Shown piece after piece: positions 1 to 32,907 of a DNA stretch of 64,000 nt. The notes beneath the pieces are model-generated. The model saw only the letters and a list, made by a program, of their open reading frames with translations. It was not told where the DNA came from and made no database searches. How positions within the stretch are numbered: the first letter of the stretch is position 1; each line of letters starts with the position of its first letter. This DNA is from Chitinophagaceae bacterium (GTDB lineage Bacteria > Bacteroidota > Bacteroidia > Chitinophagales > Chitinophagaceae): NCBI GenBank assembly GCA_019638595.1, contig JAHBTJ010000014.1, forward strand, positions 1 through 64,000, in the 5' to 3' direction. Position numbers and translations under genes: made by a program.

Positions 1-660
1 ATTTCAAAGAACTTGTTACCCCTGGTAAAGTTAATCAAATAAGTGTCTCCCAACTGGTTTATGTTTTCAGCAGTATGTTTGGCTTGGTCTGCATCCAGGT
101 TGCGGTTAATGATGCCCAAACGGCTGCTGCCGTACATATGGTGTTCCGCCAGCTTCAAGGTGCCTGCTGAAACGCTGGTCACGTCCTCCACCTTGTATAC
201 TGCCAGTACATTGCCCCCGGCATCCCGCACATACCAGGTATAACTGTAAAGGGCATTGGAGGGAGAGCGGAACCGGAAGAACTGACCGATGCGGTTGCCC
301 GACGGATCGTAATTGTAATAGATATGCTGGGAAGTGGCATTGGATATAGCGCCTTTATTGATCTCTACTATCTTGCCATACACGTTCCATTTTATGCTGT
401 TCAGCACGCGGTTGGCGGCGCTCTTTAAATTGCCGATGGCATCGTACTGGTAATTGTCGGGATCCTGGTCTTTAAGGTCGGTATTAATACCGTAAGCCGT
501 TACCCCGTAGTCGCGTACATGATTGAGGCGGTTGGTGCCGGCATCGTAGTGGTAATACAGGCTGTCCATTAACTGGTTGGCGTTCAGATTGCCCCTGCGC
601 GTGGCCGTGAGTATATTGCCGTTGGCATCGTAGGTGTACCGCTGTGTGTAGCTGTCAGCT
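1..660 (-). pseudogene. Orphan Rhs core fragment, cassette A (runs off left edge)
   Basis: The minus strand encodes a stretch of Rhs core matching the full-length Rhs gene at about 13743-14400 almost base for base. It runs from YTYDANGNILTATRRG through MDSLYYHYDAG and KWNVYGKIVEINKGAIS to GDTYLINFTRGNKFFE. It has no start codon or promoter of its own and begins abruptly at the junction repeat at 649. No stop appears before the window edge, so its toxin tip and immunity gene must lie to the left. It is one of the two long core fragments (with cassette D), which start further upstream in the core than the other cassettes. It is inferred to be a silent donor for recombination with the full-length gene. 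Confidence 0.8.
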
Positions 661-730
661 ATCAGCTATGAGCCATCGGCTTTGGGCGTAGGGTGAAAGG
701 TATAGGGTTGTAAAGTGTATGTCTTTACAA
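649..730 (-). repeat. Cassette junction repeat J1
   Basis: This word-like repeat begins GCTGTCAGCTATCAGC and continues through a CATCGGC-TTTGGGCG stretch into GGTATAGGGTTGTAAAGTGT. The same block occurs at 2594, 4741, 7436, 9607 and 11498, each time exactly where homology to the full-length Rhs gene stops. J1 and J3 share a sub-version (GGGCGTAGGGTGAAAGG) that differs from J2, J4, J5 and J6 (GGAGTAGAAGGTATAAGG). Confidence 0.8.
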
Positions 731-733
731 TGA

Positions 734-761
734 AAAAGCCGCCAATCACTCAGCGGCTTTT
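734..761 (-). terminator. Hairpin terminator at cassette A/B boundary
   Basis: A 9-bp stem AAAAGCCGC/GCGGCTTTT is flanked by T-rich sequence on both strands, so it could work in either direction. It stands between the immunity gene of cassette B and core fragment A. The same hairpin recurs at every boundary. Confidence 0.7.
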
Positions 762-814
762 CACTTTTATTACCGCTAACTTTTTTTCTTACTTAACCTC
801 TCAAAATGTACCAT

Positions 815-835
815 CACTAACTCTGGAACATTACC
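815..835 (-). repeat. Immunity-stop boundary motif Q1
   Basis: The plus strand reads CACTAACTCTGGAACATTACC and overlaps the stop codon of the SUKH immunity gene. Near-identical copies sit 0-9 nt from the stops of three other immunity genes (5269, 9788, 12072). Confidence 0.6.
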
Positions 836-1268
836 CAACTCCGAGAAAACCTAAATGTGCGGTCAAAAAGTCTGTAAACGTTCTTTCTTTTTTCTCAAAA
901 TCTAATTTATTTCTTCCTTCGTAATAATAATAAATAGCTGGATTATCACTTTCACCAATATTAAAAAAAGCAAATTGATATCCTTGATGCATAAAAAATA
1001 CAAAAGCAGTTTCTGGCAAAGTCTTAAAGTTATCATCTTCCAATAATTCAACTGCCGCCTCTCTTAACTCAAAAATTTCATTATAAAATACTGAAGATCC
1101 CTTTAAAAAGTCGCCTGCCCCCTTGCCCATAATTTTCAGAAATTCGATATATTTTTCAGGGAGCTTAACCTGAAAAAAATCTTCAATCTTTAGAATTTCT
1201 TTGGACGAACAACCTTTTAAAAAGCACCCCCTTTTTTCTAAAAATTCTTCTATTTCGATTATATTCAT
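831..1268 (-). CDS. SUKH (SMI1/KNR4) family immunity protein, cassette B
   Basis: The 145-aa product has the pattern of the SMI1/KNR4-SUKH superfamily: an N-terminal helix (IEIEEFLEKRG), then EIEDFF..LPEKYIEFLKIMGKGAG, a central F-F-M-H-Q-G-Y-Q-F-A-F-F strand pair, and a C-terminal TFTDFLTAHL helix. SUKH proteins are the commonest immunity proteins of polymorphic toxin systems and often guard against nuclease or deaminase tips. The gene follows the cassette B toxin by 10 nt in the same direction, which fits a toxin-immunity pair. It is AT-rich compared with the neighbouring Rhs core, as expected for an exchangeable tip. That it binds the adjacent tip is inferred from position. Confidence 0.75.
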   Translation of the reverse strand: MNIIEIEEFLEKRGCFLKGCSSKEILKIEDFFQVKLPEKYIEFLKIMGKGAGDFLKGSSVFYNEIFELREAAVELLEDDNFKTLPETAFVFFMHQGYQFAFFNIGESDNPAIYYYYEGRNKLDFEKKERTFTDFLTAHLGFLGVG

Positions 1269-1278
1269 ACAATATTTT

Positions 1279-2403
1279 TTATTTTACTCCGCTTACTTCT
1301 TCTACTTTAATATTAGGAAATTTCTTATTAAATTGTTTAATTACTCCTTCGCAAGAAGAACAGAATGTTCTTTCTGAAATAAGTTTAATTGAGCCTTCTA
1401 TATTTGGAGTTAAACGATATTGTTGGGCAATATTTTCAAGAAGTTTTACTTCAGAATCAAACAGCCTATCATATCCTCCAACTTCATGGGTCGAAAATAC
1501 TCGGTTAGTTGGATTGTCAATAAATCCAGATATTGTTTTTTGGCCACTTATTGCAAAGTCATTAATCTTAGTATTACCTATTTGCCCTTCCAAAATAGCT
1601 ATATTCTTGGTTTCCTTTATCCCAAAGTTATTTCGTATAAAACCAACTTTAGAAACTGATCTTGGAATTCCGATTTTTCCTATAGCTTTAAAAGCTGCTC
1701 TTGCTTCCCCCACACCATCCACAAAAGACATTATCTCTAATACAGGCAATGCTATATTATCAGCAAACTTGTTAAACGTCTTATCATCAGCAATCTTCAT
1801 CCAAAGCGGCTTGCTGGCATCTTCATTGTAACCGCTATTCCGCAAATAGGACCTCCATTCCGCATCTCTTCTTTGTTTTTCTTCTTGCGAATATTGAGGG
1901 GTGGCGCCAATTTGATATTGCGAATATTGATTTCCTCCCGTTAACCAGGACATAATTAATCTCGGAGTTCGAAGTTCAAGGCTATTTTTAACTTCAATTT
2001 GTGCTCTCCATTGCTTTTCTAAATTTGCTTTGATTTGGCTTAAAGATTCCAGACCATCTAAATCGGAGTTTTCAATCGGGCTATTTGAAGCATATTGGTA
2101 TGGCGTTAGTGAAGGGAAGTCTCTTGTCAGTGGATCCACACTTAAAAACCTCCCCAGCCTCGGCTCGTAGATGCGGAAGCCGTAGTCCAGCTCATTGTAA
2201 GGTCCGTTCACCTCGCTGTCACTTTCCTTGCCATTGAACCCGTACCGGTATTTCTGCCAGTGGTTGTTATAGGCTCTGCCAGGTAAGGTCATGCCGAAGG
2301 GCGAGTAGTCCGCAGCCGTCATTACATCGGCTTTGTAGCTGGCTATTACAGATGGGTTGCCCGATACAGGTACCGGTTCACGCTTGTCCGTTACCGTAAG
2401 CAT
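1279..2403 (-). CDS. Orphan Rhs core-toxin tip, deaminase-like toxin (cassette B)
   Basis: The first ~95 residues are the hyperconserved end of the Rhs core (GRAYNNHWQKYRYGFNGKE, then YNELDYGFRIYEPRLGRFLS), followed by the P-x4-D-L-D-G-L motif where Rhs tips begin. Next comes a pre-toxin linker (ESLSQIKANLEKQW to FADNIALP) shared with the full-length gene's tip. The last ~110 residues carry DSEVKLLENIA and SERTFCSSCEGVIKQF, a D/H-x-E plus C-x2-C arrangement typical of toxin nucleic-acid deaminases. That would make it a zinc-dependent cytidine- or adenosine-type deaminase, but the usual H/C of the first motif is D here, so activity is uncertain. Core homology extends upstream to 2595 but is broken by an insertion, so the unit has no natural start and is probably silent. 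Confidence 0.7.
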   Translation of the reverse strand: MLTVTDKREPVPVSGNPSVIASYKADVMTAADYSPFGMTLPGRAYNNHWQKYRYGFNGKESDSEVNGPYNELDYGFRIYEPRLGRFLSVDPLTRDFPSLTPYQYASNSPIENSDLDGLESLSQIKANLEKQWRAQIEVKNSLELRTPRLIMSWLTGGNQYSQYQIGATPQYSQEEKQRRDAEWRSYLRNSGYNEDASKPLWMKIADDKTFNKFADNIALPVLEIMSFVDGVGEARAAFKAIGKIGIPRSVSKVGFIRNNFGIKETKNIAILEGQIGNTKINDFAISGQKTISGFIDNPTNRVFSTHEVGGYDRLFDSEVKLLENIAQQYRLTPNIEGSIKLISERTFCSSCEGVIKQFNKKFPNIKVEEVSGVK

Positions 2404-2595
2404 TACATTGCCCAGGTGGTTCGTTTGTTGCCGTGTGCATATTTATTGTTTTTTGCCACGGCGAATGCTACACTGCGTTACGCATTTCAAAGAGCTTGTT
2501 GCCTCTTGTAAAGTTAATCAAATAAGTGTCTCCCAACTGGTTTATGTTTTCAGCAGTATGTTTGGGCTGGTCTGCATCCAGGTTGCGGTTAATAG
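2404..2595 (-). pseudogene. Upstream remnant of cassette B Rhs core
   Basis: This continues the Rhs core homology (NINQLGDTYLINF and NRNLDADQPKH regions), but about 57-60 foreign bases at 2425-2484 break the frame. The homology ends at 2595, the same core nucleotide as in cassettes C, E and F. Confidence 0.7.
2425..2484 (-). repeat. Small palindromic insertion in cassette B core
   Basis: Cassettes C, D, E and F run straight from the NHLGNVML codons into the GNKFFE/GNKLFE codons here. Cassette B carries about 57-60 extra bases. The insert has complementary ends GCCGTG/CACGGC around an AT-rich loop and a TGCGTAACGCA palindrome, so it looks like a miniature REP-type element. Confidence 0.55.
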
Positions 2596-2690
2596 ATAGC
2601 TGTCAGCTATCAGCTATGAGCTATCGGCTTTGGAGTAGAAGGTATAAGGAGTAAGGTATAGGGTTGTAAAGTGTACGTACTTAGTTATGA
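2594..2690 (-). repeat. Cassette junction repeat J2
   Basis: This copy of the GCTGTCAGCTATCAGC word repeat is followed by GGAGTAGAAGGTATAAGG and TAGGGTTGTAAAGTGT. It abuts the truncated 5' end of the cassette B core at the NRN-LDADQ codons. Confidence 0.8.
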
Positions 2691-2718
2691 AAAAGCCGCC
2701 AATCACTCAGCGGCTTTT
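2691..2718 (-). terminator. Hairpin terminator downstream of mini-core gene 1
   Basis: The stem AAAAGCCGC/GCGGCTTTT with a T tract lies six bases past the stop of the small gene at 2724 and just before the next core fragment. It would end transcription of the small gene and insulate cassette B. Confidence 0.75.
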
Positions 2719-2723
2719 CACTT

Positions 2724-3059
2724 TTAACTACCTGGCTGTTTTTTACCCGGCTTTTTCTTTACCGGTTGCTTTTTTGTATAGGTATAGGGGTTATTGATTG
2801 CACTTTGGTTAGGGTCTGGTGGTATATAACGACCTATACGCGGATCGTATATACGCATACCATAATCCTGCATTATCTTCGATTTACCCGTTGTATCCAT
2901 CATCTGTTTGTAAGTTATTCTGCCGCCGTATGCATCCAATAACGCTTTATATAAGCTGTCTGCCTGCTGCCTCGTTGTTGCTGCACTATCGGTTTTAGTT
3001 TGCTGCGCTGCGGCTGTTATACTTACCAGCAATACACTCATTAGGATAAGCTTTTGCAT
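2724..3059 (-). CDS. Small secreted mini-Rhs-core protein, copy 1
   Basis: The 111-aa product has a clear Sec signal peptide (MQKLILMSVLLVSITAAAQQ, AxA cleavage), a polar segment, then YGGRITYKQMMDTTGKSK, QDYGMRIYDPRIGRYIPPDP, NPYTYTKK and a Lys/Pro-rich tail. QDYGMRIYDPRIGRYIPPDP copies the signature of the Rhs core (ELDYGFRIYEPRLGRFLSVDP), and NNPYTY resembles the following NSPYSYA step, but no Rhs shell or toxin is attached. Four copies lie between cassettes, each with its own downstream terminator. I recognise no named family. The function is unknown; a decoy, chaperone or core-derived cofactor are all possible. The start is set by the signal peptide. Confidence 0.75.
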   Translation of the reverse strand: MQKLILMSVLLVSITAAAQQTKTDSAATTRQQADSLYKALLDAYGGRITYKQMMDTTGKSKIMQDYGMRIYDPRIGRYIPPDPNQSAINNPYTYTKKQPVKKKPGKKQPGS

Positions 3060-3100
3060 ATGGGTTAAAGGTTGGTTTGTTTATTAATATTTTTTTACAC

Positions 3101-3165
3101 AAATAACGCCTAAGCACCAGTATGGCTCTGCTTCTTGCATGGCTACCAGGCCGGCGCTGGTGGGA
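3101..3165 (-). repeat. Dispersed imperfect inverted repeat P1
   Basis: The plus strand reads ATAACGCCTAAGCACCAG and ends CCAGGCCGGCGCTGGTGGG; the ends can pair imperfectly. Related copies are at 7941, 11996 and, outside the toxin locus, 36079. It sits between an immunity gene and the small gene upstream region. Confidence 0.6.
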
Positions 3166-3170
3166 GGATA

Positions 3171-3431
3171 TTAGAATTTCTCTCCTTTTTCATTTATGTA
3201 TTTATCCGACTTATAGAATGAAAACAGATCAGTTCCACAAAAAGGACAATAAGCAATATTAAAATTGGGAACCCTCACATCAAATTCCTTATAACCAGGT
3301 GTAATATAATAGCGATATAGATAATTTGTATCTAAAAGTTCTTCTGGTTTGTATTTAACGACTCTTATGTTTAAACCATAATGATCAGGCATTTGGTGTG
3401 CTGATTTAAATCTTTCACAGCAAAAATTCAT
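3171..3431 (-). CDS. Candidate immunity protein with zinc-ribbon-like CPFCG, cassette C
   Basis: This 86-aa product starts 3 nt after the cassette C toxin stop, in the position of an immunity gene. It has an N-terminal FCCERF and a C-terminal YCPFCGTDLF knuckle, so two Cys pairs could bind one zinc ion. Between them lies VRVVKYKPEELLDTNYLYR and an ITPGYKEFDVRVPNF strand-rich segment. I do not recognise a family. Its role as antitoxin to the adjacent tip is inferred from position and spacing. It is AT-rich like the toxin part of the cassette. Confidence 0.6.
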   Translation of the reverse strand: MNFCCERFKSAHQMPDHYGLNIRVVKYKPEELLDTNYLYRYYITPGYKEFDVRVPNFNIAYCPFCGTDLFSFYKSDKYINEKGEKF

Positions 3432-3434
3432 AAT

Positions 3435-4685
3435 CTAGTCAACTTTTGAATTCAAAATTGTTTTTTTAATTGCTTCGTTTGAAGTTGATATTTCTCCCCC
3501 GGTAGCAACCGTCTTTCCACTACTATTTACTAAAACTCCATTGTTTGTACCTTGATCTATGAGTCCTTCTCTTCTTAATTGATTAAACCCATTTCTGGAC
3601 ACCTTATATGACTGCACAGTTAGTCCATTTTGTTCTGCATATGCTGCAGCATAACCCGCATCTTCCGTTAAAAAAAGAGTACCATGGGTAGCAGTAGCAC
3701 CCTCTTTCCCTGAAACTCCTCTAAACAAAGTCATCATTTCATCAGAAGCTCCACCGTTTAATATACCATTTATTTCAGTTTTAGTAAATGTTCTGCCACT
3801 TATTCCGATTCCAGCAATACTTTCCAGCTTTTCACTACTCCTAAGAATATTTCTTCCTGCAGATTTGCTGCCACTTGCTAAAATAGTAGCACCACCAATC
3901 CAATTTATTGGATTAGTCATTATATTCTTATATGCACCCCATAATGTTGGATTATCTCCGAACCATTCCCGAAGCTGATCATTCCATAACGACCTGTTAT
4001 GGTACATTTCTGCATTTTTGATAAAATCAAAGACTCCATCCGGACCGACAACATATTCATCCTGGTACATCCCTTTATATTTTCCGTCAGGATAGTGATA
4101 CCTAGCAATCCAATAGGAAGAATTATTTTGTCCGATAAGTCCTCTAAATTCATAATTCTTTGCCCATATGGACTTTGTTTGTTCTTTGATTCCTGGAGCG
4201 GTTGCATTTGACAAATGGCTAATTCCTTTAGGGTTAGCGTCCGGGTCATAACGTTCTGCACCATCTAGATCGATGAACTTAATTGGAGTATTCCCTGCGT
4301 ATTGGTAAGGTGTTAACTCGACAAACTTACTCGTCAACGGGTCAACAGAGAGGAACCTTCCCAGCCTCGGTTCATATATACGGAAGCCATAGTCCAGCTC
4401 GTTGTAAGGTCCGTTCACTTCGCTGTCGCTTTCCTTGCCGTTGAACCCATACCGGTATTTCTGCCAGTGGTTGTTATAGGCTCTGCCTGGTAGCGTCATG
4501 CCGAAGGGCGAATAGTCCGCAGCCGTCATTACATCGGCTTTATAGCTCGCTATTACAGAAGGATTGCCCGATACAGGTACCGGCTCGCGCTTGTCCGTTA
4601 CCGTAAGCATTACATTGCCTAAATGATTGGCAATTTCAAAGAACTTGTTACCCCTGGTAAAGTTAATCAAATAAGTGTCTCCCAA
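3435..4685 (-). CDS. Orphan Rhs core-toxin tip, possible ART-like toxin (cassette C)
   Basis: Residues 1 to about 135 are Rhs core, ending YEPRLGRFLSVDPLT and the tip-start motif P-I-K-F-I-D-L-D-G. The rest (~280 aa) is unique. Its last third reads MMTLFRGVSGKEG, THGTLFLTEDAGYAAAYAEQ and VQSYKVSRNGF. An F-R-G strand, a G-T-L-F-L-T-E-D turn and an A-A-A-Y-A helix recall ADP-ribosyltransferase-fold toxins. I see no clear catalytic Glu, so this is tentative. Core homology continues without a start to about 4740, where junction repeat J3 begins. The apparent start is a TTG inside the core, so this is a promoterless donor fragment rather than an independent gene. Confidence 0.6.
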   Translation of the reverse strand: MGDTYLINFTRGNKFFEIANHLGNVMLTVTDKREPVPVSGNPSVIASYKADVMTAADYSPFGMTLPGRAYNNHWQKYRYGFNGKESDSEVNGPYNELDYGFRIYEPRLGRFLSVDPLTSKFVELTPYQYAGNTPIKFIDLDGAERYDPDANPKGISHLSNATAPGIKEQTKSIWAKNYEFRGLIGQNNSSYWIARYHYPDGKYKGMYQDEYVVGPDGVFDFIKNAEMYHNRSLWNDQLREWFGDNPTLWGAYKNIMTNPINWIGGATILASGSKSAGRNILRSSEKLESIAGIGISGRTFTKTEINGILNGGASDEMMTLFRGVSGKEGATATHGTLFLTEDAGYAAAYAEQNGLTVQSYKVSRNGFNQLRREGLIDQGTNNGVLVNSSGKTVATGGEISTSNEAIKKTILNSKVD

Positions 4686-4740
4686 CTGGTTTATGTTTTC
4701 AGCAGTATGTTTGGGCTGGTCTGCATCCAGGTTGCGGTTA

Positions 4741-4830
4741 ATAGGTGGCTGTCAGCTATCAGCTATGAGCCATCGGCTTTGGGCGTAGGGTGAAAGGTAT
4801 AGGGTTGTAAAGTGTATGTCTTTACAATGA
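4741..4830 (-). repeat. Cassette junction repeat J3
   Basis: This GCTGTCAGCTATCAGC word block with the GGGCGTAGGGTGAAAGG sub-version is nearly identical to J1. It begins where cassette C core homology ends (NRN-LDADQ codons). Confidence 0.8.
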
Positions 4831-4858
4831 AAAAGCCGCCAATCACTCAGCGGCTTTT
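4831..4858 (-). terminator. Hairpin terminator downstream of mini-core gene 2
   Basis: AAAAGCCGC/GCGGCTTTT stem with flanking T-rich sequence, immediately 3' of the small gene at 4864 and 5' of core fragment C. Confidence 0.75.
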
Positions 4859-4863
4859 CACTT

Positions 4864-5190
4864 TTAACTACCTGGCTGTTTTTTACGCGGCTTTTTCTTT
4901 ACCGGTTGCTTTTTTGTATAGGTATAGGGGTTATTGATTGCACTTTGGTTAGGGTCTGGTGGTATATAACGACCTATACGCGGATCGTATATGCGCATGC
5001 CATAGTCCTGCATTATCTTCGATTTACCCGTTGTATCCATCATCTGTTTGTAAGTTATTCTGCCGCCGTATGCATCCAATAACGCTTTATATAAACTGTC
5101 TGCCTGCTGCCTCGTTGTATCGGTTTTAGTTTGCTGCGCTGCGGCTGTTATACTTACCAGCACCACACTCATTAGTATAAGCTTTTTCAT
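4864..5190 (-). CDS. Small secreted mini-Rhs-core protein, copy 2
   Basis: This 108-aa paralogue of the product at 2724 has the signal peptide MKKLILMSVVLVSITAAAQQ, the same YGGRITYKQMMDTTGKSK block, the Rhs-core-like QDYGMRIYDPRIGRYIPPDP, and a basic Lys/Pro tail. It lacks three residues in the polar segment after the signal peptide and has an Arg in the tail (KKKPRKKQPGS). The region upstream of the start is AT-rich (TAATAAACAAACC) but has no clear promoter box. It lies between the cassette D immunity gene and core fragment C. Confidence 0.75.
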   Translation of the reverse strand: MKKLILMSVVLVSITAAAQQTKTDTTRQQADSLYKALLDAYGGRITYKQMMDTTGKSKIMQDYGMRIYDPRIGRYIPPDPNQSAINNPYTYTKKQPVKKKPRKKQPGS

Positions 5191-5268
5191 ATTGGTTGGA
5201 GGTTGGTTTGTTTATTACAAAATTTATAGCCTTTTAATTTTTACGGTACAAGCGGAACTCTTGCATCT

Positions 5269-5289
5269 CGCTAACGCTGGAACATTACC
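5269..5289 (-). repeat. Immunity-stop boundary motif Q2
   Basis: The plus strand reads CGCTAACGCTGGAACATTAC, ending nine bases from the stop of the cassette D immunity gene. It differs from Q3 by one base (GCT for TCT region). Confidence 0.6.
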
Positions 5290-5297
5290 TATTCTTA

Positions 5298-5726
5298 TTA
5301 AGAACGACTAGCACTTAGACCATAGTGCGTTATAAGTTCATAGAAGACTTTATCTCTATTGCCCTCAACAAATGAACGTATTAGATTAACAATATTTTCT
5401 GTCTGTTCCTGAATAGAATTATCATAAACAAGTTCCTCAGTGCTAGCAATAATTCTCCCATCGCCAAAAGATATGTCTGAAATAAGAAATAAGTTGCCAT
5501 TTCTGTTTATTAGTCCACTATAATGTGAAGTTAACTGTGCATTTGTCGAAAACACAATCCCGTAATCATCTTCGGATATATTATTTGGAATACCTAGTAC
5601 ACACGTAACTGTGAACTTATCTCTTTTGAAAATATGCTTTCCAAAAGAGATTTTCACTTGATCTTTGAAAACGCATTCTATTTCGCTTGCGATGCTTTGA
5701 TAAACTTCTAAAATATTTTGTACCAA
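5298..5726 (-). CDS. Candidate immunity protein, cassette D
   Basis: This 142-aa, acidic, AT-rich product starts 2 nt after the stop of the cassette D toxin, as expected for a translationally coupled immunity gene. It begins with a helix (VQNILEVYQSIASEIE). Alternating strands follow (VKISFGKHIFKRDKFTVTCV, then GNLFLISDISFGDGRII), and it ends in a helical segment (TENIVNLIRSFVEGNRDKV). No signal peptide or membrane segment is visible, so it is probably cytosolic. I do not recognise the family. Confidence 0.6.
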   Translation of the reverse strand: MVQNILEVYQSIASEIECVFKDQVKISFGKHIFKRDKFTVTCVLGIPNNISEDDYGIVFSTNAQLTSHYSGLINRNGNLFLISDISFGDGRIIASTEELVYDNSIQEQTENIVNLIRSFVEGNRDKVFYELITHYGLSASRS

Positions 5727-5728
5727 CT

Positions 5729-7000
5729 TTATTTATCTTTTTTAGGAATTTTATTTTCGCCAATTCTTGCTGCCATAACCATAACGGTTCTATAATGCAA
5801 TTTTTGACCTCTTGTGGCAGCCCACTCTTTTAACTCTTGCCTTGTCGGCGCCCTTATGCCCACATGTCCATCATCCGTTTCTGTAATTTTAAATCCAAAA
5901 TTTCGTAAAACATTTAAATCGATTTTCTGAGCTTTTCCTCCTTTATCGCCGACAGCTTGCTCAGCAGTTCGAAACGTAGAAAGCCCACTCTTAGGTCCTT
6001 CGCCATCATCTTTTCCTGGTCTAGGTGTAAAATTCTCCTTTGTAAATGCCCCTCCTCTGTAAACTATATCTTGATCTTTATCTCGATCAACTACATCTTC
6101 GGGATAATCCGATCTATGATGTTCTTCTGCCCAGGTTTGATTCAACGGAGCATTTTTAAAGCCTTCTTGCTTAGCTCGGTCATACAAAGTCTTATCTGTA
6201 TAACTATCTTGTGGAGATGTAAATGTATACCATATTATTCCGAGAACTCCTCCTCTTGTAAAAGGATTCACCAACGGCACCTTTTTAGGCACTAACGATT
6301 TATCAGGAACGCGGCCTGAGTTTCGCCCATTAAGCAAATCCCGATCGACCTTAATATCAATCTTTGGTTTAGTTGGTGTAGGCGTAGCAACAGCCCTTTC
6401 TTCAGTTCTTTCTAACCCATCCAAATCAATATAATTTATAGGATCACCCTCTGCATATGAATACGGGCTATTCCAAGGAAAACTTTTTGTCAGCGGATCC
6501 ACAGAGAGGAACCTACCCAGCCTCGGTTCGTAGATGCGCATGCCGTAGTCCAGCTCGTTGTAAGGTCCGTTCACCTCGCTGTCGCTTTCCTTGCCGTTGA
6601 ACCCGTAGCGGTATTTCTGCCAGTGGTTGTTATAGGCTCTGCCTGGTAAGGTCATGCCGAAGGGTGAGTAGTCCGCAGCCGTCATTACATCGGCTTTGTA
6701 GCTGGCTATTACAGATGGGTTGCCCGATACAGGTACCGGCTCGCGTTTGTCCGTTACCGTAAGCATTACATTGCCTAAATGGTTGGCAATTTCAAAGAGC
6801 TTGTTACCTCTGGTAAAGTTAATCAAATAAGTGTCTCCCAACTGGTTTATGTTTTCAGCAGTATGTTTGGGCTGGTCTGCATCCAGGTTGCGGTTAATGA
6901 TGCCCAATCGGCTGCTGCCGTACATATGGTGTTCCGCCAGCTTCAAGGTGCCTGCCGAAACGCTGGTCACGTCCTCTACCTTTGTATACTGCCAGTACAC
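5729..7000 (-). CDS. Orphan Rhs core-toxin tip, unassigned YRGG/GLSTF toxin (cassette D)
   Basis: The first ~175 residues are Rhs core (YNELDYGMRIYEPRLGRFLS, then P-I-N-Y-I-D-L-D-G-L). A linker with a hydrophobic patch (GGVLGIIWYTF) leads to a C-terminal ~120-aa tip. The tip reads DIVYRGGAFTKENFTPRPG, GPKSGLSTFRTAEQAVG, KAQKIDLNVLRNFGF, DDGHVGIRAP and LKEWAATRGQKLHYRT. The YRGG followed by LSTF recalls the Arg and STS motifs of ADP-ribosyltransferases, but no E-x-E is evident; I treat it as unassigned. The apparent start lies inside decayed core; homology extends to 7436 with several indels. Probably silent. Confidence 0.6.
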   Translation of the reverse strand: MYWQYTKVEDVTSVSAGTLKLAEHHMYGSSRLGIINRNLDADQPKHTAENINQLGDTYLINFTRGNKLFEIANHLGNVMLTVTDKREPVPVSGNPSVIASYKADVMTAADYSPFGMTLPGRAYNNHWQKYRYGFNGKESDSEVNGPYNELDYGMRIYEPRLGRFLSVDPLTKSFPWNSPYSYAEGDPINYIDLDGLERTEERAVATPTPTKPKIDIKVDRDLLNGRNSGRVPDKSLVPKKVPLVNPFTRGGVLGIIWYTFTSPQDSYTDKTLYDRAKQEGFKNAPLNQTWAEEHHRSDYPEDVVDRDKDQDIVYRGGAFTKENFTPRPGKDDGEGPKSGLSTFRTAEQAVGDKGGKAQKIDLNVLRNFGFKITETDDGHVGIRAPTRQELKEWAATRGQKLHYRTVMVMAARIGENKIPKKDK

Positions 7001-7436
7001 ATTGCCCCCGGCATCCTTACATAAATATGTATAGCTGTAAAGGGCATTGGAGGGAGAGCGGAACCGGAAGAACTGACCGATCCGGTTACCCTCGACGGAT
7101 CGTAGTTGTAATAGATATGTTGGGAAGTGGCATTGATATAGCGCCTTTATTGATCTCCACTATCTTGCCATACACGTTCCATTTTATGCTGTTCAGCACG
7201 CGGTTGGCGGCGCTCTTTAAATTGCCGATGGCATCGTACTGGTAATTACCGGGATCCTGGTCTTTCAGGTCGGTATTAATACCGTAAGCCGTTACACCGT
7301 AGTCGCGTACATGATTGAGGCGGTTGGTGCCGGCATCGTAGTGGTAATACAGGCTGTCCATCAGCTGGTTGGCGTTCAGATTGCCCCTGCGCGTGGCCGT
7401 GAGTATATTGCCGTTGGCATCGTAGGTATAGCGCTG
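7001..7436 (-). pseudogene. Decayed upstream core of cassette D
   Basis: The core homology MDSLYYHYDAGTNRLN to KWNVYGKIVEINKGAIS is readable at 7086-7361 but is interrupted by small indels. One G is lost near 7135 in the GGCATTGATATAG stretch, two bases are gained near 7088 in GGTTACCCTCGACGG, and extra bases sit near 6981 and 7001. Homology stops at 7436 at the same core position as cassette A. The decay shows that this part is not under selection as an independent reading frame. Confidence 0.75.
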
Positions 7437-7533
7437 TAGAAGCTGTCAGCTATCAGCTATGAGCTATCGGCTTTGGAGTAGAAGGTATAAGGAGTAAGGT
7501 ATAGGGTTGTAAAGTGTACGTACTTAGTTATGA
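7436..7533 (-). repeat. Cassette junction repeat J4
   Basis: GCTGTCAGCTATCAGC word block with the GGAGTAGAAGGTATAAGG sub-version, abutting the cassette D core fragment at the ERYTYDA codons instead of the NRN-LDADQ codons. Confidence 0.8.
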
Positions 7534-7561
7534 AAAAGCCGCCAATCACTCAGCGGCTTTT
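7534..7561 (-). terminator. Hairpin terminator downstream of mini-core gene 3
   Basis: AAAAGCCGC/GCGGCTTTT stem with flanking T tract, six bases past the stop of the small gene at 7567. Confidence 0.75.
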
Positions 7562-7566
7562 CACTT

Positions 7567-7899
7567 TTAACTACCTGGCTGTTTTTTACCCGGCTTTTTC
7601 TTTACCGGTTGCTTTTTTGTATAGGTATAGGGGTTATTGATTGCACTTTGGTTAGGGTCTGGTGGTATATAACGACCTATACGCGGATCGTATATACGCA
7701 TGCCATAGTCCTGCATTATCTTCGATTTACCCGTTGTGTCCATCATCTGTTTGTACGTTATTCTGCCGCCGTATGCATCCAATAACGCTTTATATAAACT
7801 GTCTGTCTGTGACCTGGTTGCTGAACTATCACTTTGCGTTTGCTGCGCTGTAGCTGTTATACTTACCAGCAATACACTCATTAGGATAAGCTTTTGCAT
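7567..7899 (-). CDS. Small secreted mini-Rhs-core protein, copy 3
   Basis: This 110-aa paralogue of the products at 2724 and 4864 has the signal peptide MQKLILMSVLLVSITATAQQ and the shared block YGGRITYKQMMDTTGKSK followed by QDYGMRIYDPRIGRYIPPDP and a basic tail. The segment just after the signal peptide differs most between copies (TQSDSSATRSQTDSLYK here against TKTDSAATTRQQADSLYK), while the core-like block is unchanged. That fits selection or gene conversion on the core-like part. Confidence 0.75.
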   Translation of the reverse strand: MQKLILMSVLLVSITATAQQTQSDSSATRSQTDSLYKALLDAYGGRITYKQMMDTTGKSKIMQDYGMRIYDPRIGRYIPPDPNQSAINNPYTYTKKQPVKKKPGKKQPGS

Positions 7900-7940
7900 A
7901 TAGGTTAAAGGTTGGTTTGCTTATTAATATTTTTTTACAC

Positions 7941-8006
7941 AAGTAACGCCTAAGCACCGGTCTGGCTCTGCTCCCTGCACGGCTACAAGACCGGCGCTAG
8001 TGGGGG
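7941..8006 (-). repeat. Dispersed imperfect inverted repeat P2
   Basis: The plus strand reads AGTAACGCCTAAGCACCGG and ends CAAGACCGGCGCTAGTGGG. The arms AGCACCGGTCT and AGACCGGCGCT are imperfectly complementary. Its right end lies a few bases from the stop of the Imm35 gene. Confidence 0.65.
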
Positions 8007-8008
8007 TG

Positions 8009-8311
8009 CTAGATTAATTTTTTCTTTGTATGTTTGGCTCGGTATTCGCTAATATATTCCTCAATTGGTCTGGCTGTACCAGTGGCTGAAATACTTCCAT
8101 TATACTTGTTTACTATTAGCGGTGAATTGCCTCCTAGTGCATCAAGGATATTTCCACTTTCTAAAAAAGCTTCCGATTGGTAGAAAAATACCCACCCCAA
8201 ATCAAACTCAACTGTTTCATTCAGTAATAATACTAATTTGCAATTACTTTTTAATTCCAATTGCTTAAGATAATCTTTTGCGATGTTTAAAGCAATTTCT
8301 TGATTTATCAT
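8009..8311 (-). CDS. Imm35 (YrhB-like) immunity protein, cassette E
   Basis: The ~100-aa product reads MINQEIALNIAKDYLKQLE, EFDLGWVFFYQSEAFLESG, DALGGNSPLIVNKYNGSI and TGTARPIEEYISEY. This is the characteristic series of the Imm35/YrhB family (an N-terminal helix, a G-W-V-F-F-Y-Q-S strand, a G-N-x-P-L-I-V turn, a G-T-x-x-P-x-E-x-Y-I end). Imm35 is commonly found beside papain-fold toxins, which matches the upstream gene. I chose the ATG at 8311, one base after the toxin stop, rather than the longer frame to 8353, because family similarity starts there. Confidence 0.8.
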   Translation of the reverse strand: MINQEIALNIAKDYLKQLELKSNCKLVLLLNETVEFDLGWVFFYQSEAFLESGNILDALGGNSPLIVNKYNGSISATGTARPIEEYISEYRAKHTKKKLI

Positions 8312-8312
8312 A

Positions 8313-9095
8313 TTATTTTGTAGGAGTTGTATTAAGAAAATATAATGATTCATACTTTCCCTCTTTCATTAAAGTGTTTGGATTGATACTTCTGGCACCT
8401 ATCTCTTGCTGGAAATCAACAAATTGAACCTTTCCATCTTGCTTAACAACATTAAAAAAATGACCAATTTTCCCGTTTCCCCTATGTCCAAAAATTACTC
8501 CAGTAGCACCATCCTCAAGTTTATCCATCAATTTAATTATTGAATTAGGAGAGACATGTTTTTCCATAGTTTTGGCATCAAACCAACTTAAAAAGTCTTT
8601 TACTAAAAGAACTCCGTGATTAAGCGCTGATGCAGGATATCCTTTTAAGGAGGCATCTCCCGCAATTGTACAGCCTGCACAGTTATACTCTCCGCGGAGA
8701 GGGTTGATATCTCTTGATCCTCCAATCATTTCGGACTTAGTAATCTTTCCTTTTGCAAGTAAAAATATTGCAGAAGCCTCTCCCCATAACTCCGCATTGG
8801 TTGGATCCTTTTTTATCTCCATCATTAATTCTACAGGCGTAGTTAATATTGGCATGAACATATCCTTGGCAATATTATCATTGGGAGCTAATGGAAATTG
8901 TTTTGCAAAATTTTCTTTCGGCACCTTGCTGCCATAATGAGCTTGAGCAAACATTTCGGTAATTGCTGCAAATGCGTAGGCAGGAACTTTTAATAAGCCA
9001 ACTCCAAATTTTGTACCTGGATCGTCTGCCTTGATAGTTGGGCTATTCAAATTTACATTTGCATATTTGGGCTCAAGAACTGGAGCATCCGACAT
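8313..9095 (-). CDS. Papain-like (Tox-PL) toxin tip, cassette E
   Basis: The frame carries a pre-toxin linker resembling that of cassette F (VPAYAFAAITEM, PILTTPVELMMEI, ELWGEASAIFLLA) and then a papain-fold toxin. EYNCAGCTIAGDASLKGYPA holds the likely nucleophilic Cys, GKIGHFFNVVKQDGKVQFV the catalytic His, and the VDFQ step the third active-site position. Tox-PL enzymes are peptidases or protein glutamine deamidases; which applies here cannot be told. Homology to Rhs tips continues upstream of 9095 (AGNSPIRFIDLDGKERA) to about 9203, where a one-base deletion separates it from the Rhs core at 9131-9606. The annotated ATG is therefore accidental, and the toxin is a stored tip. Confidence 0.75.
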   Translation of the reverse strand: MSDAPVLEPKYANVNLNSPTIKADDPGTKFGVGLLKVPAYAFAAITEMFAQAHYGSKVPKENFAKQFPLAPNDNIAKDMFMPILTTPVELMMEIKKDPTNAELWGEASAIFLLAKGKITKSEMIGGSRDINPLRGEYNCAGCTIAGDASLKGYPASALNHGVLLVKDFLSWFDAKTMEKHVSPNSIIKLMDKLEDGATGVIFGHRGNGKIGHFFNVVKQDGKVQFVDFQQEIGARSINPNTLMKEGKYESLYFLNTTPTK

Positions 9096-9130
9096 TGCTC
9101 CCCCACTCGGATTTGCTCGCTCTTTACCAT

Positions 9131-9606
9131 CTAAATCAATAAAACGAATCGGACTGTTCCCTGCAAATTGATATGAAGAGTAATATGGATATGACCTGCC
9201 AACGGATCCACGCTGAAAAATCTACCCAGCCTCGGTTCATATACACGGAAGCCGTAGTCCAGCTCATTATAAGGTCCGTTCACCTCGCTGTCGCTTTCCT
9301 TGCCGTTAAATCCGTACCGGTATTTCTGCCAGTGGTTGTTATAGGCTCTGCCTGGTAAGGTCATGCCGAAGGGTGAATAGTCCGCAGCCGTCATTACATC
9401 GGCTTTGTAGCTGGCTATTACAGAAGGATTACCCGATACAGGTACCGGCTCGCGCTTGTCCGTTACCGTAAGCATTACATTGCCCAAATGGTTGGCAATT
9501 TCAAAGAACTTGTTACCCCTGGTAAAGTTAATCAAATAAGTGTCTCCCAACTGGTTTATGTTTTCAGCAGTATGTTTGGGCTGGTCTGCATCCAGGCTGC
9601 GGTTAA
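9131..9606 (-). pseudogene. Cassette E Rhs core fragment, frameshifted from its toxin
   Basis: The core from NRS-LDADQPKH through GDTYLINFTRG and YNELDYGFRVYEPRLGRFFS to VDPLAG is intact. A missing base near 9203 then moves translation into a short nonsense tail (HIHITLHINLQG) instead of ARSYPYYSSYQFAGN. The 5' end at 9607 coincides with the core position where B, C and F begin. Confidence 0.75.
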
Positions 9607-9704
9607 TAGGAAGCTGTCGGCTATCAGCTATGAGCTATCGGCTTTGGAGTAGAAGGTATAAGGAGTAAGGTATAGGGTTGTAAAGTGTACGTACTTAGTT
9701 ATGA
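9607..9704 (-). repeat. Cassette junction repeat J5
   Basis: A slightly diverged copy (GCTGTCGGCTATCAGC) of the word block with the GGAGTAGAAGGTATAAGG sub-version, at the truncated start of the cassette E core. Confidence 0.75.
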
Positions 9705-9732
9705 AAAAGCAGCCAATCACTCAGCGGCTTTT
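9705..9732 (-). terminator. Mutated boundary hairpin
   Basis: Same hairpin as at the other boundaries, but one stem base is changed (AAAAGCAGC against GCGGCTTTT). Downstream only a six-base remnant of the small gene's 3' end remains, so this boundary has lost its mini-core gene. Confidence 0.55.
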
Positions 9733-9787
9733 CACTTTTAACTACCCGGCTAACTTTTTTCTTACTTAACCTCTCAAAATGTACCAT

Positions 9788-9808
9788 CGCTAACTCTGGA
9801 ACATTACC
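9788..9808 (-). repeat. Immunity-stop boundary motif Q3
   Basis: CTAACTCTGGAACATTACC on the plus strand, ending two bases before the stop of the cassette F immunity gene. The preceding ~40 bases (ACTTAACCTCTCAAAATGTA) are identical to those before Q1. Confidence 0.6.
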
Positions 9809-9810
9809 TA

Positions 9811-10203
9811 TCACTCATTACCTATGTCCAAATTCGGCACTATTGGAGGGATTAAATCTAAAATAAAAGTTGCATTGACTTCATCCAATCGCACTAAATG
9901 AGGTATGCCGAAACAATCGCACAAACAATTTAATGTTATATAAAATAAAACAATCTGCCCAGAATCAATAACGTGAGTTGACAAGTCTTCTACTTCAATA
10001 TGTAACCCATTTGATTCCTCCAAAACGACTTCATGAAAATGCTGGGCAGCAAATTCGATAGCATATTTCCATCTTCGATCAATAAACTCCTTATAGATTA
10101 TTGAAACAGAATTTGCTTCAATTCGTTTCACATTCAAAGTGATTCTACCGGAGAAACCCTTATTTTTTAATTTTTGCTTAAACTCATATGTTGAACTTTT
10201 CAT
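9811..10203 (-). CDS. Candidate immunity protein, cassette F
   Basis: The 130-aa product overlaps the toxin stop by four bases (ATGA-type coupling), the strongest positional sign of a toxin-immunity pair. It opens with a helix and strand (YEFKQKLKNKGFSGRITLNV) and continues with RRWKYAIEFAAQHFHEVVLE. A hydrophobic IVLFYITLNCLCDCFGIPH segment follows, then an acidic end (LDLIPPIVPNLDIGNE). I do not recognise a family. It is AT-rich compared with the Rhs core. Confidence 0.6.
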   Translation of the reverse strand: MKSSTYEFKQKLKNKGFSGRITLNVKRIEANSVSIIYKEFIDRRWKYAIEFAAQHFHEVVLEESNGLHIEVEDLSTHVIDSGQIVLFYITLNCLCDCFGIPHLVRLDEVNATFILDLIPPIVPNLDIGNE

Positions 10204-11441
10204 TTTTGCCCATTGTTTTTTGCTTGATTAAAATCTCTGATCACACCCTGTCTGTCTATTTTCTTTCCGCCTTTATAAAAGTCTGTTGCATCAAATAGCT
10301 TTTTATTTCCCATTATATGTTCCAATTCAGCAACGGTAAAACTTCCTTCCTTAGAATAAGGGTCTTTACCAATCTGCATTGCTGCTTTGTTCCAATCAAA
10401 CTTTGTCAAGTCAAATTTTATGCGCCCTCCGTTATCTACTACAAATTCTGATACACTTTTAAAATTGTTGATAAAAGTTGTTGAACGATCTAACCGAAAA
10501 TATCCTTTCCATTCTGTTTGCTCTAACGCAAAATTTTCAAATGCAAATTTTTTCAAAGAACCTCTTTCATTTAGCCCTAATGCAATGTCATTAACCTTTA
10601 TACTTGATGACAGTGCCCCTTTAGACTTACCCGCTTGCGAGTATACAAAAAACATTGCCGCAGCCTCACCCCAATATTCAGGATTAGAAGGATCCTCATT
10701 CAGTTTCATCAGCACTTCAACAGGTGTTGTAACGATTGGAACTAATACATCTTTTAAAAGATTTTTATTAGGTAAAGCAGGAAAATTGCTTTCCCATAAA
10801 TGATCAGGCGTTTTATCACCATATTCTGCCGCTGCGGGAAGATTTGTTGCAAGACCTACCATGCCGACTAATAATTCTCCGGTTTTTTTCAAAAAACCCT
10901 TACCCAATTTTGTAAGTGGATCTAATTCGATTTTAGGTTGTGAAAGTGCGGCAGCTTGATACTTTCTGTGGGGAGCATCTGAGTATATATGATCATTAGC
11001 ACCATAAGGTTCCAACCCGTCTAAATCAATATTTGCAATTGGAGAATTGCCAGCAAAGTGGTAAGGTGAATAAAATGGATATTTTCTATAGAGCTTATCC
11101 ACACTGAAAAATCTACCAAGCCTCGGCTCATATACGCGGTTGCCGTAGTCCAGCTCGTTGTAAGGTCCATTCACTTCGCTGTCGCTTTCCTTGCCGTTGA
11201 ACCCGTAGCGGTATTTCTGCCAGTGGTTGTTATAGGCTCTGCCTGGTAGCGTCATGCCGAAGGGCGAATAGTCCGCAGCCGTCATTACATCGGCTTTGTA
11301 GCTGGCTATTACAGAAGGATTGCCCGATACAGGTACCGGCTCGCGTTTGTCCGTTACCGTAAGCATTACATTGCCCAGGTGGTTCGTTACTTCAAAGAGC
11401 TTGTTGCCTCTTGTAAAGTTAATCAAATAAGTGTCTCCCAA
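10200..11441 (-). CDS. Orphan Rhs core-toxin tip, unassigned toxin (cassette F)
   Basis: The Rhs core (YNELDYGNRVYEPRLGRFFS, P-I-A-N-I-D-L-D-G-L) is followed by a pre-toxin linker like that of cassette E (GELLVGMVGLA, PIVTTPVEVLMKL, EYWGEAAAMFFV). The final ~135 residues are the tip: NDIALGLNERGSLKKFAFEN, TEWKGYFRLDRST, GGRIKFDLTKFDW, SFTVAELEHIM and a basic QGVIRDFNQAKNNGQK end. The ALGL...FA...W...FDL pattern is one I associate with recurrent polymorphic-toxin tips, but I cannot name the activity. The frame is open up to 11499, with no start except an internal TTG, so it is a complete but promoterless donor cassette. Confidence 0.6.
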   Translation of the reverse strand: MGDTYLINFTRGNKLFEVTNHLGNVMLTVTDKREPVPVSGNPSVIASYKADVMTAADYSPFGMTLPGRAYNNHWQKYRYGFNGKESDSEVNGPYNELDYGNRVYEPRLGRFFSVDKLYRKYPFYSPYHFAGNSPIANIDLDGLEPYGANDHIYSDAPHRKYQAAALSQPKIELDPLTKLGKGFLKKTGELLVGMVGLATNLPAAAEYGDKTPDHLWESNFPALPNKNLLKDVLVPIVTTPVEVLMKLNEDPSNPEYWGEAAAMFFVYSQAGKSKGALSSSIKVNDIALGLNERGSLKKFAFENFALEQTEWKGYFRLDRSTTFINNFKSVSEFVVDNGGRIKFDLTKFDWNKAAMQIGKDPYSKEGSFTVAELEHIMGNKKLFDATDFYKGGKKIDRQGVIRDFNQAKNNGQK

Positions 11442-11497
11442 CTGGTTTATGTTTTCAGCAGTATGTTTGGGCTGGTCTGCATCCAGGCTGCGGTTAA

Positions 11498-11595
11498 TAG
11501 GTGGCTGTCAGCTATCAGCTATGAGCTATCGGCTTTGGAGTAGAAGGTATAAGGAGTAAGGTATAGGGTTATAAAGTGTACGTACTTAGTTATGA
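11498..11595 (-). repeat. Cassette junction repeat J6
   Basis: GCTGTCAGCTATCAGC word block with the GGAGTAGAAGGTATAAGG sub-version, at the truncated start of the cassette F core. Confidence 0.8.
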
Positions 11596-11623
11596 AAAAG
11601 CCGCCAATCACTCAGCGGCTTTT
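11596..11623 (-). terminator. Hairpin terminator downstream of mini-core gene 4
   Basis: AAAAGCCGC/GCGGCTTTT stem plus T tract just past the stop of the small gene at 11629. It is the first terminator downstream of the full-length Rhs-immunity pair, so it may end the main operon transcript. Confidence 0.7.
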
Positions 11624-11628
11624 CACTT

Positions 11629-11956
11629 TTAACTACCTGGCTGTTTTTTACCCGGCTTTTTTGTTAACGGTTGCTTTTTTGTATAGGTATAGGGGTTATT
11701 GATTGCACTTTGGTTAGGGTCTGGTGGTATATAACGACCTATACGCGGATCGTATATACGCATGCCATAGTCCTGCATCATCTTCGATTTACCCGTTGTA
11801 TCCATCATCTGTTTGTACGTTATTCTGCCGCCGTATGCATCCAATAACGCTTTATATAAACTGTCTGCCTGCTGCCTCGTTGTATCGGTTTTAGTTTGCT
11901 GCGCTGCGGCTGTTATACTTACTAACAGCACACTCTTAATATAAGCTTTTTCATAT
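11629..11956 (-). pseudogene. Small secreted mini-Rhs-core protein, copy 4 (signal peptide frameshifted)
   Basis: From LLVSITAAAQQ onward this copy matches the others, including QDYGMRIYDPRIGRYIPPDP. The expected ATG at about 11956 starts ATG AAA AAG CTT ATA, but bases equivalent to the CTCATTAG of copy 2 are missing, so the frame reaches a stop after about ten codons. A GTG at 11931 would restart translation within the hydrophobic part, giving about 100 aa with a crippled n-region. Export is doubtful. This is the copy closest to the active Rhs gene. Confidence 0.65.
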
Positions 11957-11995
11957 TGGTTAAAGGTTGGTTTGTTTATTAATATTTTTTACATA

Positions 11996-12060
11996 AGTAA
12001 CGCCTAAGCACCGGTCTGGCTCTGCTCCCTGCACGGCTACAAGACCGGCGCTAGTGGGGC
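11996..12060 (-). repeat. Dispersed imperfect inverted repeat P3
   Basis: AGTAACGCCTAAGCACCGG at the left and CAAGACCGGCGCTAGTGGG at the right, nearly identical to P2. Here it is followed directly by motif Q4, so both boundary elements occur together. Confidence 0.65.
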
Positions 12061-12071
12061 ATTTCCCGTAT

Positions 12072-12090
12072 CGCTAACTCTGGAACATTA
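12072..12090 (-). repeat. Immunity-stop boundary motif Q4
   Basis: CGCTAACTCTGGAACATTA on the plus strand, directly abutting the stop codon of the immunity gene of the full-length Rhs protein. Confidence 0.6.
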
Positions 12091-12591
12091 TTATACAGTA
12101 ATAGTCCAGTAGTTATTAGCTAGTTTATTCTTTACAATATCAGGTGCATCAACTAAACTAAAGAATATGTGTACATTATGCATATTCATATTTGCCTCCA
12201 TTAAAGGATAATCTTTGGGTACAAAAGGAAACTTTGAATATTTAACATCATCGGGTAGGAACAAAAAACTGTTGCTAAACATAATCTCTATTTCAGCACC
12301 ACTAAATTCCTCGTTGAATCCCCCTACTATAATATTTTCTGTCCGAATCGGATTGGATTCCTGGCTATGTTTACCAATTATTTTCGTAGATTCACTTTCC
12401 ACCCTAAAAGAACTTACTTTTTCGAAAATGTAATAAGAAAAATCCAAGTATCCTTCAGTCGCAGTAAACGGGTTATTTAACATTATATTTAACCCAATAA
12501 ACGGAATAATAAGTGTATCGTTAGATATAAAAACGCTAAGTGAAAAAGCTTCAGAAGTGTTAATAAAACTTGGATTATGAAATTCCTTCAT
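12091..12591 (-). CDS. Candidate immunity protein of the full-length Rhs toxin
   Basis: This 166-aa product starts two bases after the Rhs stop codon and should be co-translated with it. It is rich in strand-like segments (SLSVFISNDTLIIPFIGLNI, GYLDFSYYIFEKVSSF, ENIIVGGFNEEFSGAEIEIM) and ends in NYWTITV. There is no signal peptide. I do not recognise a family. Because the Rhs gene is the only complete one in the window, this should be the immunity protein actually in use. It is AT-rich and abuts boundary motif Q4. Confidence 0.65.
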   Translation of the reverse strand: MKEFHNPSFINTSEAFSLSVFISNDTLIIPFIGLNIMLNNPFTATEGYLDFSYYIFEKVSSFRVESESTKIIGKHSQESNPIRTENIIVGGFNEEFSGAEIEIMFSNSFLFLPDDVKYSKFPFVPKDYPLMEANMNMHNVHIFFSLVDAPDIVKNKLANNYWTITV

Positions 12592-12593
12592 TT

Positions 12594-23900: not shown

Positions 23901-23957
23901 ACATGTGTCTTTTAAAATGATCCTGTTCATGTCTGTATTTTTTTAATGAGGCAGGCG

Positions 23958-31646: not shown

Positions 31647-31666
31647 GTTGTATCAGTTCTTTTCTG

Positions 31667-32794: not shown

Positions 32795-32907
32795 GTGTGC
32801 CTTTTTATTGATTGAATCAAATGCATGCCACGCCTGCAGCCGGTAAGCTCGCAAACATTGCACTTAAATTTTTCACTGTAACGGGGACGGAATACTAGCG
32901 CTTTGGT

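Follow-up and report, generated by a model that had tools for sequence, protein, structure and literature searches.

The window analysed here, positions 1 to 64,000 of contig C6 (C6:1-64000) in a draft genome of a Chitinophagaceae bacterium (7.06 Mb, 52 contigs), carries an Rhs polymorphic-toxin locus in which one full-length rhs gene is followed by orphan toxin tips with their immunity genes. At least eight such orphan cassettes are present. Very probably they were drawn from working rhs genes by recombination in the shared core, fell silent recently and could be loaded onto the active gene. The locus is a case of the known displacement of rhs C-termini (Jackson 2009; Poole 2011; Koskiniemi 2014).

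The argument is quantitative: about a quarter of the synonymous sites differ between the nominally silent core pieces, whose protein is nearly unchanged, and this distinguishes in-place decay from the capture of working genes or exchange with them. The locus extends orphan-tip arrays to a Terrimonas-like genus, with orphan tips in four of five opened congeners, and makes it testable whether orphan tips are a usable library or a graveyard. Full-text literature searches returned only an unrelated soil paper for Rhs in Terrimonas and nothing for Rhs polymorphic toxins in Chitinophaga; the selection argument is not claimed as new in print.

Architecture of the array

The array is headed by the full-length gene and its own immunity gene.

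12594-23150, minus strand: full-length active-type Rhs gene, an open reading frame (ORF) of 3518 amino acids (aa), with its tip at about 13373-12597
12091-12591, minus strand: immunity gene assigned by position to the active tip; 166 aa, without a Pfam match

The RHS-associated core model TIGR03696 matches residues 3173-3258 of the 3518 with 50.2 bits, against a cut-off of 32.5, and the N-terminus is of the Sec type, as judged by eye. It is the only full-length gene in the source genome (G000) that is close in DNA to the array core. Six 3′ core pieces lie 3′ of it in the window, all on the minus strand and 93–97% identical to it in DNA, which bears out the description of nearly identical pieces in the same direction in an earlier, sequence-only reading. 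Units are named F, E, D, C, B and A in order of transcription; G and H lie further on, on contig C8.

11097-11498, minus strand: unit F core piece, 95% identical to the active gene
10200-11096, minus strand: unit F tip, with an open core-tip frame
9811-10203, minus strand: unit F immunity gene, by position; its start overlaps the tip stop
9206-9607, minus strand: unit E core piece; the frame shifts directly after it
8313-9205, minus strand: unit E tip, a Gln_amidase papain-fold toxin (PF15644, Pfam)
8009-8353, minus strand: unit E immunity gene, Imm35 (PF15567, Pfam)
6485-7435, minus strand: unit D core piece, longer, with its upstream part frame-broken
5729-6484, minus strand: unit D tip; the last 65 codons are also found in congener G004
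5298-5726, minus strand: unit D immunity gene, by position; 92% identical in aa in G004
4341-4742, minus strand: unit C core piece
3435-4340, minus strand: unit C tip, with an open core-tip frame
3171-3431, minus strand: unit C immunity gene, by position; a relative with 40% aa identity adjoins an orphan tip in G004
2134-2597, minus strand: unit B core piece, with a 62-nucleotide (nt) insert at 2422-2483
1279-2133, minus strand: unit B tip, a BURPS668_1122-type deaminase (PF14424, Pfam); its pre-toxin part is common with the active tip
831-1268, minus strand: unit B immunity gene, SMI1/KNR4 SUKH-1 (PF09346, Pfam)
1-643, minus strand (read 643-1): unit A core piece, truncated where the contig ends

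The sequence-only reading had counted six tip–immunity units in the window. Its six core pieces stand, but only five complete pairs (B to F) lie there, and the sixth tip is on C8. The point in the core at which C6 ends is followed in units B and G by the sequence with which C8 opens, so the two contigs abut, as far as sequence can show. On C8 (locus L011), the core end and tip of unit A run to 1226, its immunity gene occupies 1222-2070, and units G and H follow. Past unit H, L011:6249-8318 holds frame-broken ORFs that resemble, by eye, an IS200-type transposase remnant (no Pfam match), and two tipless ORFs, one a SUKH-3 immunity gene and the other immunity-like by position only (no Pfam match above the cut-off).

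Six of the eight units start within 3 nt of active-gene coordinate 9289, and A and D start at 8756; the cassettes are headed by about 400–950 nt of shared core. The nine tip-plus-immunity regions have a GC content of 33–37%, and the six core blocks measured (of nine) one of 48–50%. The tips were rightly called unrelated and AT-rich: among nine tips and nine immunity genes, tblastn at 1e-4 found no mutual matches except between the pre-toxin parts of tip B and the active tip, designated 0 (52% aa identity), and of F and E (40–42%). An ORF lies directly 3′ of each of the nine tips, its immunity role being assigned by position or family, and toxin and immunity families are both recognised in E and B. 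In unit H, the second piece matches ParBc_2 with an E value of 0.01, below the cut-off, and the immunity gene matches DUF6896 above it. Tips other than E, B and H gave no informative Pfam match.

The core-to-tip frame is open in five of the eight orphan units (F, D, C, B and A). Frameshifts lie at the E core-tip junction, in the G tip and in the upstream core of D, and an in-frame stop lies in the H tip; the 62-nt insert common to A, B and G disrupts their core frame and has no other close match in the genome. The immunity frame is open in all eight units, including E, G and H with their broken tip or junction, and immunity starts overlap or closely follow the tip stops. Each orphan fragment consists of a core 3′ end, an unrelated tip and an immunity gene, with no initiation or export signals seen by eye. 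Reading in frame, the first start codon is an ATG inside the core in B and a TTG or GTG in each of C, D, E and F.

Selection and recombination in the core

Core pieces were compared over a 402-nt block in nine copies, including the active one, by uncorrected Nei–Gojobori counts over 36 non-independent pairs; unit G contributes about 300 nt, and the insert of A, B and G was omitted. The pooled proportion of synonymous sites that differ (pS) is 0.241 and that of nonsynonymous sites (pN) 0.0155, a ratio of 0.064. Over a 246-nt part of the core, pS within the array is 0.25 and pN 0.004, and pS to the congener G004 is 0.48–0.58. Changes private to single archive copies comprise 18 synonymous and 7 nonsynonymous, against a neutral expectation of 72% nonsynonymous (P = 5e-6); at 7 of 25 they are less constrained than the pooled differences.

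Had the pieces been silent since duplication, pN would be expected to approach pS; most of the divergence would therefore have arisen in translated genes, or the pieces would have been refreshed from these. As the source genome has a single full-length gene close in DNA to this core, the synonymous diversity probably originated in other strains. The core blocks of A, B and G have pN/pS ratios of 0.04–0.07 among the three and are as constrained as the others despite their common insert, which fits exchange among copies.

Further analysis of site compatibility supports recombination among the core copies. A permutation test of the pairwise homoplasy index (PHI) type gave p = 0.022 for eight copies over 402 nt and p = 0.003 for nine copies, with G, over 307 nt; incompatible pairs of informative sites numbered 384 of 595 and 166 of 276, respectively.

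Orphan tips in congeners

Congener loci were opened in five genomes (G004, G005, G007, G008 and G009), picked by DNA match, with one genome compared per species. Orphan tips were found in G004, G005, G008 and G009; G007 carries a lone relative of immunity B (63% aa identity) and no orphan tip.

In G004, the active gene and its flanks are orthologous at about 79% DNA identity and end in a different tip and immunity gene, the latter with a weak CdiI likeness below the cut-off. The active pair is followed by an element with two phage-type integrases, an orphan tip with its immunity gene, an IS110 element, and the tip D end with immunity D. Nothing in the window matches the integrase element in DNA; in G004 it separates the archive from the active pair. 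The G004 orphan immunity protein is 40% identical to immunity C, and tip C has no match in G004 at 1e-4. The tip D end and immunity D, orphans in both genomes, are 95.9% identical over 635 bp. As this exceeds the identity of the surrounding locus, it suggests that the orphan D module moved recently between the species.

Spacers between the units

An intrinsic-terminator sequence precedes all six core pieces in the window, where none was expected, and its fold has an energy of −18.6 kcal/mol (z −5.2). Overall, it lies before seven of the eight orphan units, being present before H and absent before G, in agreement with the insulating terminators of the sequence-only reading.

11595-11623, minus strand: intrinsic-terminator hairpin before unit F
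9704-9732, minus strand: terminator before unit E
7533-7561, minus strand: terminator before unit D
4830-4858, minus strand: terminator before unit C
2690-2718, minus strand: terminator before unit B
733-761, minus strand: terminator before unit A

A spacer repeat precedes each of the eight units. It has 34 sites in the genome with at most two mismatches, 11 of them in the array region, and a reversed-pattern control gave none. The spacers also hold a small gene, which had been described as an extra gene in every unit; it is in fact intact in four of nine spacers and frameshifted in one. Intact copies follow C, D and E and lie at the far end some 2 kb past the H immunity gene, the frameshifted copy follows the active pair, and the gene is absent after F, B, A and G.

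11629-11952, minus strand: small spacer gene after the active pair; a frameshift breaks reading from the ATG
7567-7899, minus strand: small spacer gene, intact, 110 aa
4864-5190, minus strand: small spacer gene, intact, 108 aa
2724-3059, minus strand: small spacer gene, intact, 111 aa

Its product (108–111 aa) has a signal-peptide-like start, the Rhs-core end motif DYGMRIYDPRIGRY and a basic tail where a tip would be, and has no Pfam match. With a pooled pN/pS of 0.23 over five copies in this genome, the frameshifted one included, it looks moderately constrained. The gene was found in two of 294 family genomes, the source genome and G005 (E up to 1e-8), and a pattern scan of genome contigs confirmed one locus of 130 matches, in Terrimonas sp. 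NS-102 (NZ_QCZJ01000005.1); on these counts, a widespread family was rejected. In G008, a remnant of its signal peptide (L044:12316-12375) follows the active immunity gene and is itself followed by a Y1_Tnp-like transposase gene (L044:12537-13130, below the cut-off). This lineage-specific, signal-peptide-bearing ‘mini-Rhs’ gene is the odd part of the locus.

A conserved hairpin-forming stretch, AGCGCCGGTCT...AGACCGGTGCT, lies 5′ of the small gene in several spacers (11985-12059, 7931-8005 and 3091-3165; fold z −2.2). An integron-type attC border was considered for it and rejected, as the core site, sought by eye, was not seen. A site-specific cassette system was likewise discarded, the 62-nt insert being closely matched only in A, B and G. 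No recombinase was noticed on reading the array ORFs, and no search of the window for recombinase families was made.

Promoter scans were not decisive for the orphan immunity genes. The pattern TTTG-N17-22-TANNTTTG occurs at five sites in the window against 2.7 expected, a count reached by 19 of 100 shuffles and not clearly above chance, and a looser sense-strand scan gave eight scattered sites. Over positions 1-13500, sigma-70-like sites number 48 against 36.0 in shuffles (standard deviation 6.6); the terminator rule of that scan (loop of at most 8) missed the spacer hairpin and found seven other sites, against 12.7 expected. The orphan units may be promoterless, as described in the sequence-only reading, or may carry promoters of their own. 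The terminators, together with immunity starts at or near the tip stops, suggest poor expression of the orphan immunity genes, barring internal promoters.

Proposed mechanism and alternative explanations

In the reading favoured here, the cassettes would for most of their past have been part of working rhs genes in the pool of the species or genus; homologous recombination in the core, and perhaps also in the repeated spacers, would have brought them into the array, where they would have been silent for only a small share of that time. Archive tips could be loaded in frame onto the active gene, the core-to-tip frame being open in five of the eight units. The displacement model of Jackson 2009 offers the likeliest route: a compatible core lets incoming DNA recombine into the core of the active gene, where it becomes the new 3′ end, and the former tip moves downstream with a piece of core at its head. 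Simple crossing-over between array copies would remove the active tip along with the intervening units without archiving the old tip, so that insertion of an incoming circle or donor segment (Jackson 2009, PMC2935791) fits better. Koskiniemi 2014 (PMC3967940) describes fusion via recombination across a 95%-identical core of 522 bp and meets the deletion that accompanies loading of an archive tip with a proposed prior duplication of the locus. The earlier proposal that core recombination swaps the expressed tip and archives the old one stands in part: the PHI-type test, the pN/pS ratio and a congener with another tip speak for it, but no tip change was seen over this archive and a plain crossover would not leave an archive.

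Several observations weigh against this reading. Damage to the tip or the core-tip junction affects three of the eight units (E, G and H). In the genomes compared, one per species, none of the archive tips was found fused to the full-length core, and tip D was found in none of the 394 other genomes of the phylum sample, which evidently does not include G004, the bearer of the tip D end. Immunity D differs from its G004 copy by 12 nonsynonymous and 4 synonymous changes, few in number, with no purifying signal. Core pieces further from the active gene are no less identical to it (rho −0.04, p 0.93), which speaks against a simple chronological stack of displaced tips and suggests that the order of the array was reshuffled or that donors vary. 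Unit order and the join of C6 and C8 depend, moreover, on a draft assembly.

Orphans might instead be kept mainly for immunity against siblings or neighbours, with tips hitchhiking and swapping incidental, an idea proposed for orphan immunity arrays of the type VI secretion system (T6SS) in Vibrio cholerae (PMC5361080). This is possible, although doubtful. It accounts for eight open immunity frames of eight, even beside broken tips, and accords with the two tipless ORFs on C8, the lone immunity B relative in G007, the mild excess of sigma-70-like sites and the expression of orphan cdiI shown by Poole 2011 (PMC3150448). The terminators before seven of eight units and the immunity starts at or near tip stops speak against it, as do Bacteroidota-type promoter matches that do not stand out and the absence of a purifying signal in immunity D, and it leaves the conserved core protein sequence unexplained. 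A degenerating graveyard, in which displaced tips are relics neither reused nor expressed and the array grows through slow deletion, is unlikely. The frameshifts in E, D and G, the stop in H, the common insert in A, B and G and the relaxed constraint on private changes would fit such decay; the five open core-tip frames and the mosaic, mostly synonymous core differences would not.

The low pN/pS of the core pieces would also follow if each core-tip ORF were translated as a short toxin under selection, perhaps exported via the small signal-peptide protein. In-frame starts do exist (the TTG or GTG codons of four units and the core-internal ATG in B), and a small gene, intact or broken, precedes four of the eight units. 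Yet the pieces open with core-coding sequence that shows no signal peptide by eye, a terminator separates the small gene from the core piece, and the core block is conserved equally well among A, B and G, whose insert disrupts the frame in the first part of that block; translation of the orphans is very improbable. A further idea gives the repeated spacer (terminator, repeat at a fixed core coordinate and mini-Rhs gene) the role of cassette border: it would silence cassettes and provide a downstream homology arm, its secreted protein would cap or chaperone tipless Rhs shells, and the archive would be a population-level library of recently active toxins in standard silent frames. This reading is improbable as a whole.

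Relation to known systems

The likenesses and differences below draw on parts of the cited papers. The rhs loci of Enterobacteriaceae (Jackson 2009, PMC2935791) likewise have GC-poor strings of core 3′ fragments with different tips behind a full gene, with displacement by laterally acquired tips and recombination in the core. Cores within the loci compared there are reported as always identical, whereas here they differ by 3–9% in DNA, mostly at synonymous sites; the Sec-type N-terminus and the repeated spacer with a terminator and, in part, a small gene also set the present locus apart from those described in that part of the paper. In Salmonella (Koskiniemi 2014), rhs-main is similarly followed at its 3′ side by an orphan tip and immunity gene without initiation or export signals, and the 522-bp core block, about 95% identical, is similar in length to the 402-bp block here. 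The Salmonella strain has one orphan and a fusion backed by experiment, whereas the present locus has at least eight orphans, and their fusion to the active gene is a proposal.

The cdiA-CT/cdiI arrays of contact-dependent growth inhibition (CDI; Poole 2011) hold up to eleven orphan modules, in the cdi locus of E. coli EC869, some common to strains at 98–99% identity. They differ in being built on CdiA, with a VENN border, and not on Rhs, and the orphan region of EC93 is co-transcribed with the main genes, whereas predicted terminators intervene here. Within the Bacteroidota, Ornithobacterium hominis (PMC13183296) has 26 orphan tips in its accessory genome and one large RHS gene, and one of its tip–immunity pairs also occurs in Bergeyella cardium. 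It is another species and genus; on the part of that paper available, the spacer gene, terminators and core divergence are described here only. Given the eleven pairs of EC869 and these 26 tips, the earlier view that the size and regularity of the present array look unusual was overstated. Silent mafB-CT cassettes of Neisseria (Jamet 2015, PMC4287609) are also C-terminal cassettes with immunity genes 3′ of a full gene, some without a start codon, and the same tip is attached in one strain and a cassette in another; MafB belongs to a different toxin family, predicted to be globular and not filamentous.

The full-length gene, its surroundings and other Rhs cores

Relatives of the active tip occur in two of the 394 other sampled genomes, with 43% aa identity (a 2973-aa ORF in G643) and 38% (a 139-aa ORF in G052), and are too distant to count as the same tip. 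A T6SS-delivered Rhs effector would be expected to have a VgrG or PAAR partner and to lack a Sec signal; the N-terminus here is Sec-type by eye. The genome has one VgrG-like match, on contig C25 (25.7 bits, below the cut-off of 30.1); PAAR and other T6SS parts were not searched for.

The middle of the Rhs gene, at 16271-19378 (about residues 1300–2200), has a GC content of 34–43% and a Laminin_G_3 match below the cut-off. Against the G004 ortholog it has a single 57-bp DNA match, both flanks being about 79% identical, and blastp suggests internal repeated modules. It forms a second variable region, possibly with a role in receptor binding. Genes 5′ of the Rhs gene, at 23169-35313, encode proteins of 253, 2562 (with PA14), 398 and 801 aa; they are syntenic in G004, about 75–83% identical where aligned, and possibly form a secretion or adhesion operon.

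A core-end query against the source genome gave 34 matches, sorted manually into five in ORFs of more than 1400 aa, the five small genes, the second half of unit E and 23 in ORFs of 167–540 aa, three of which sit at contig edges. Short Rhs core ends also lie on contigs C1, C19, C20, C28, C51 and C52 (L013, L014 and L039-L042), several near contig ends, which suggests that the same genome has more orphan-tip arrays, of other Rhs core types.

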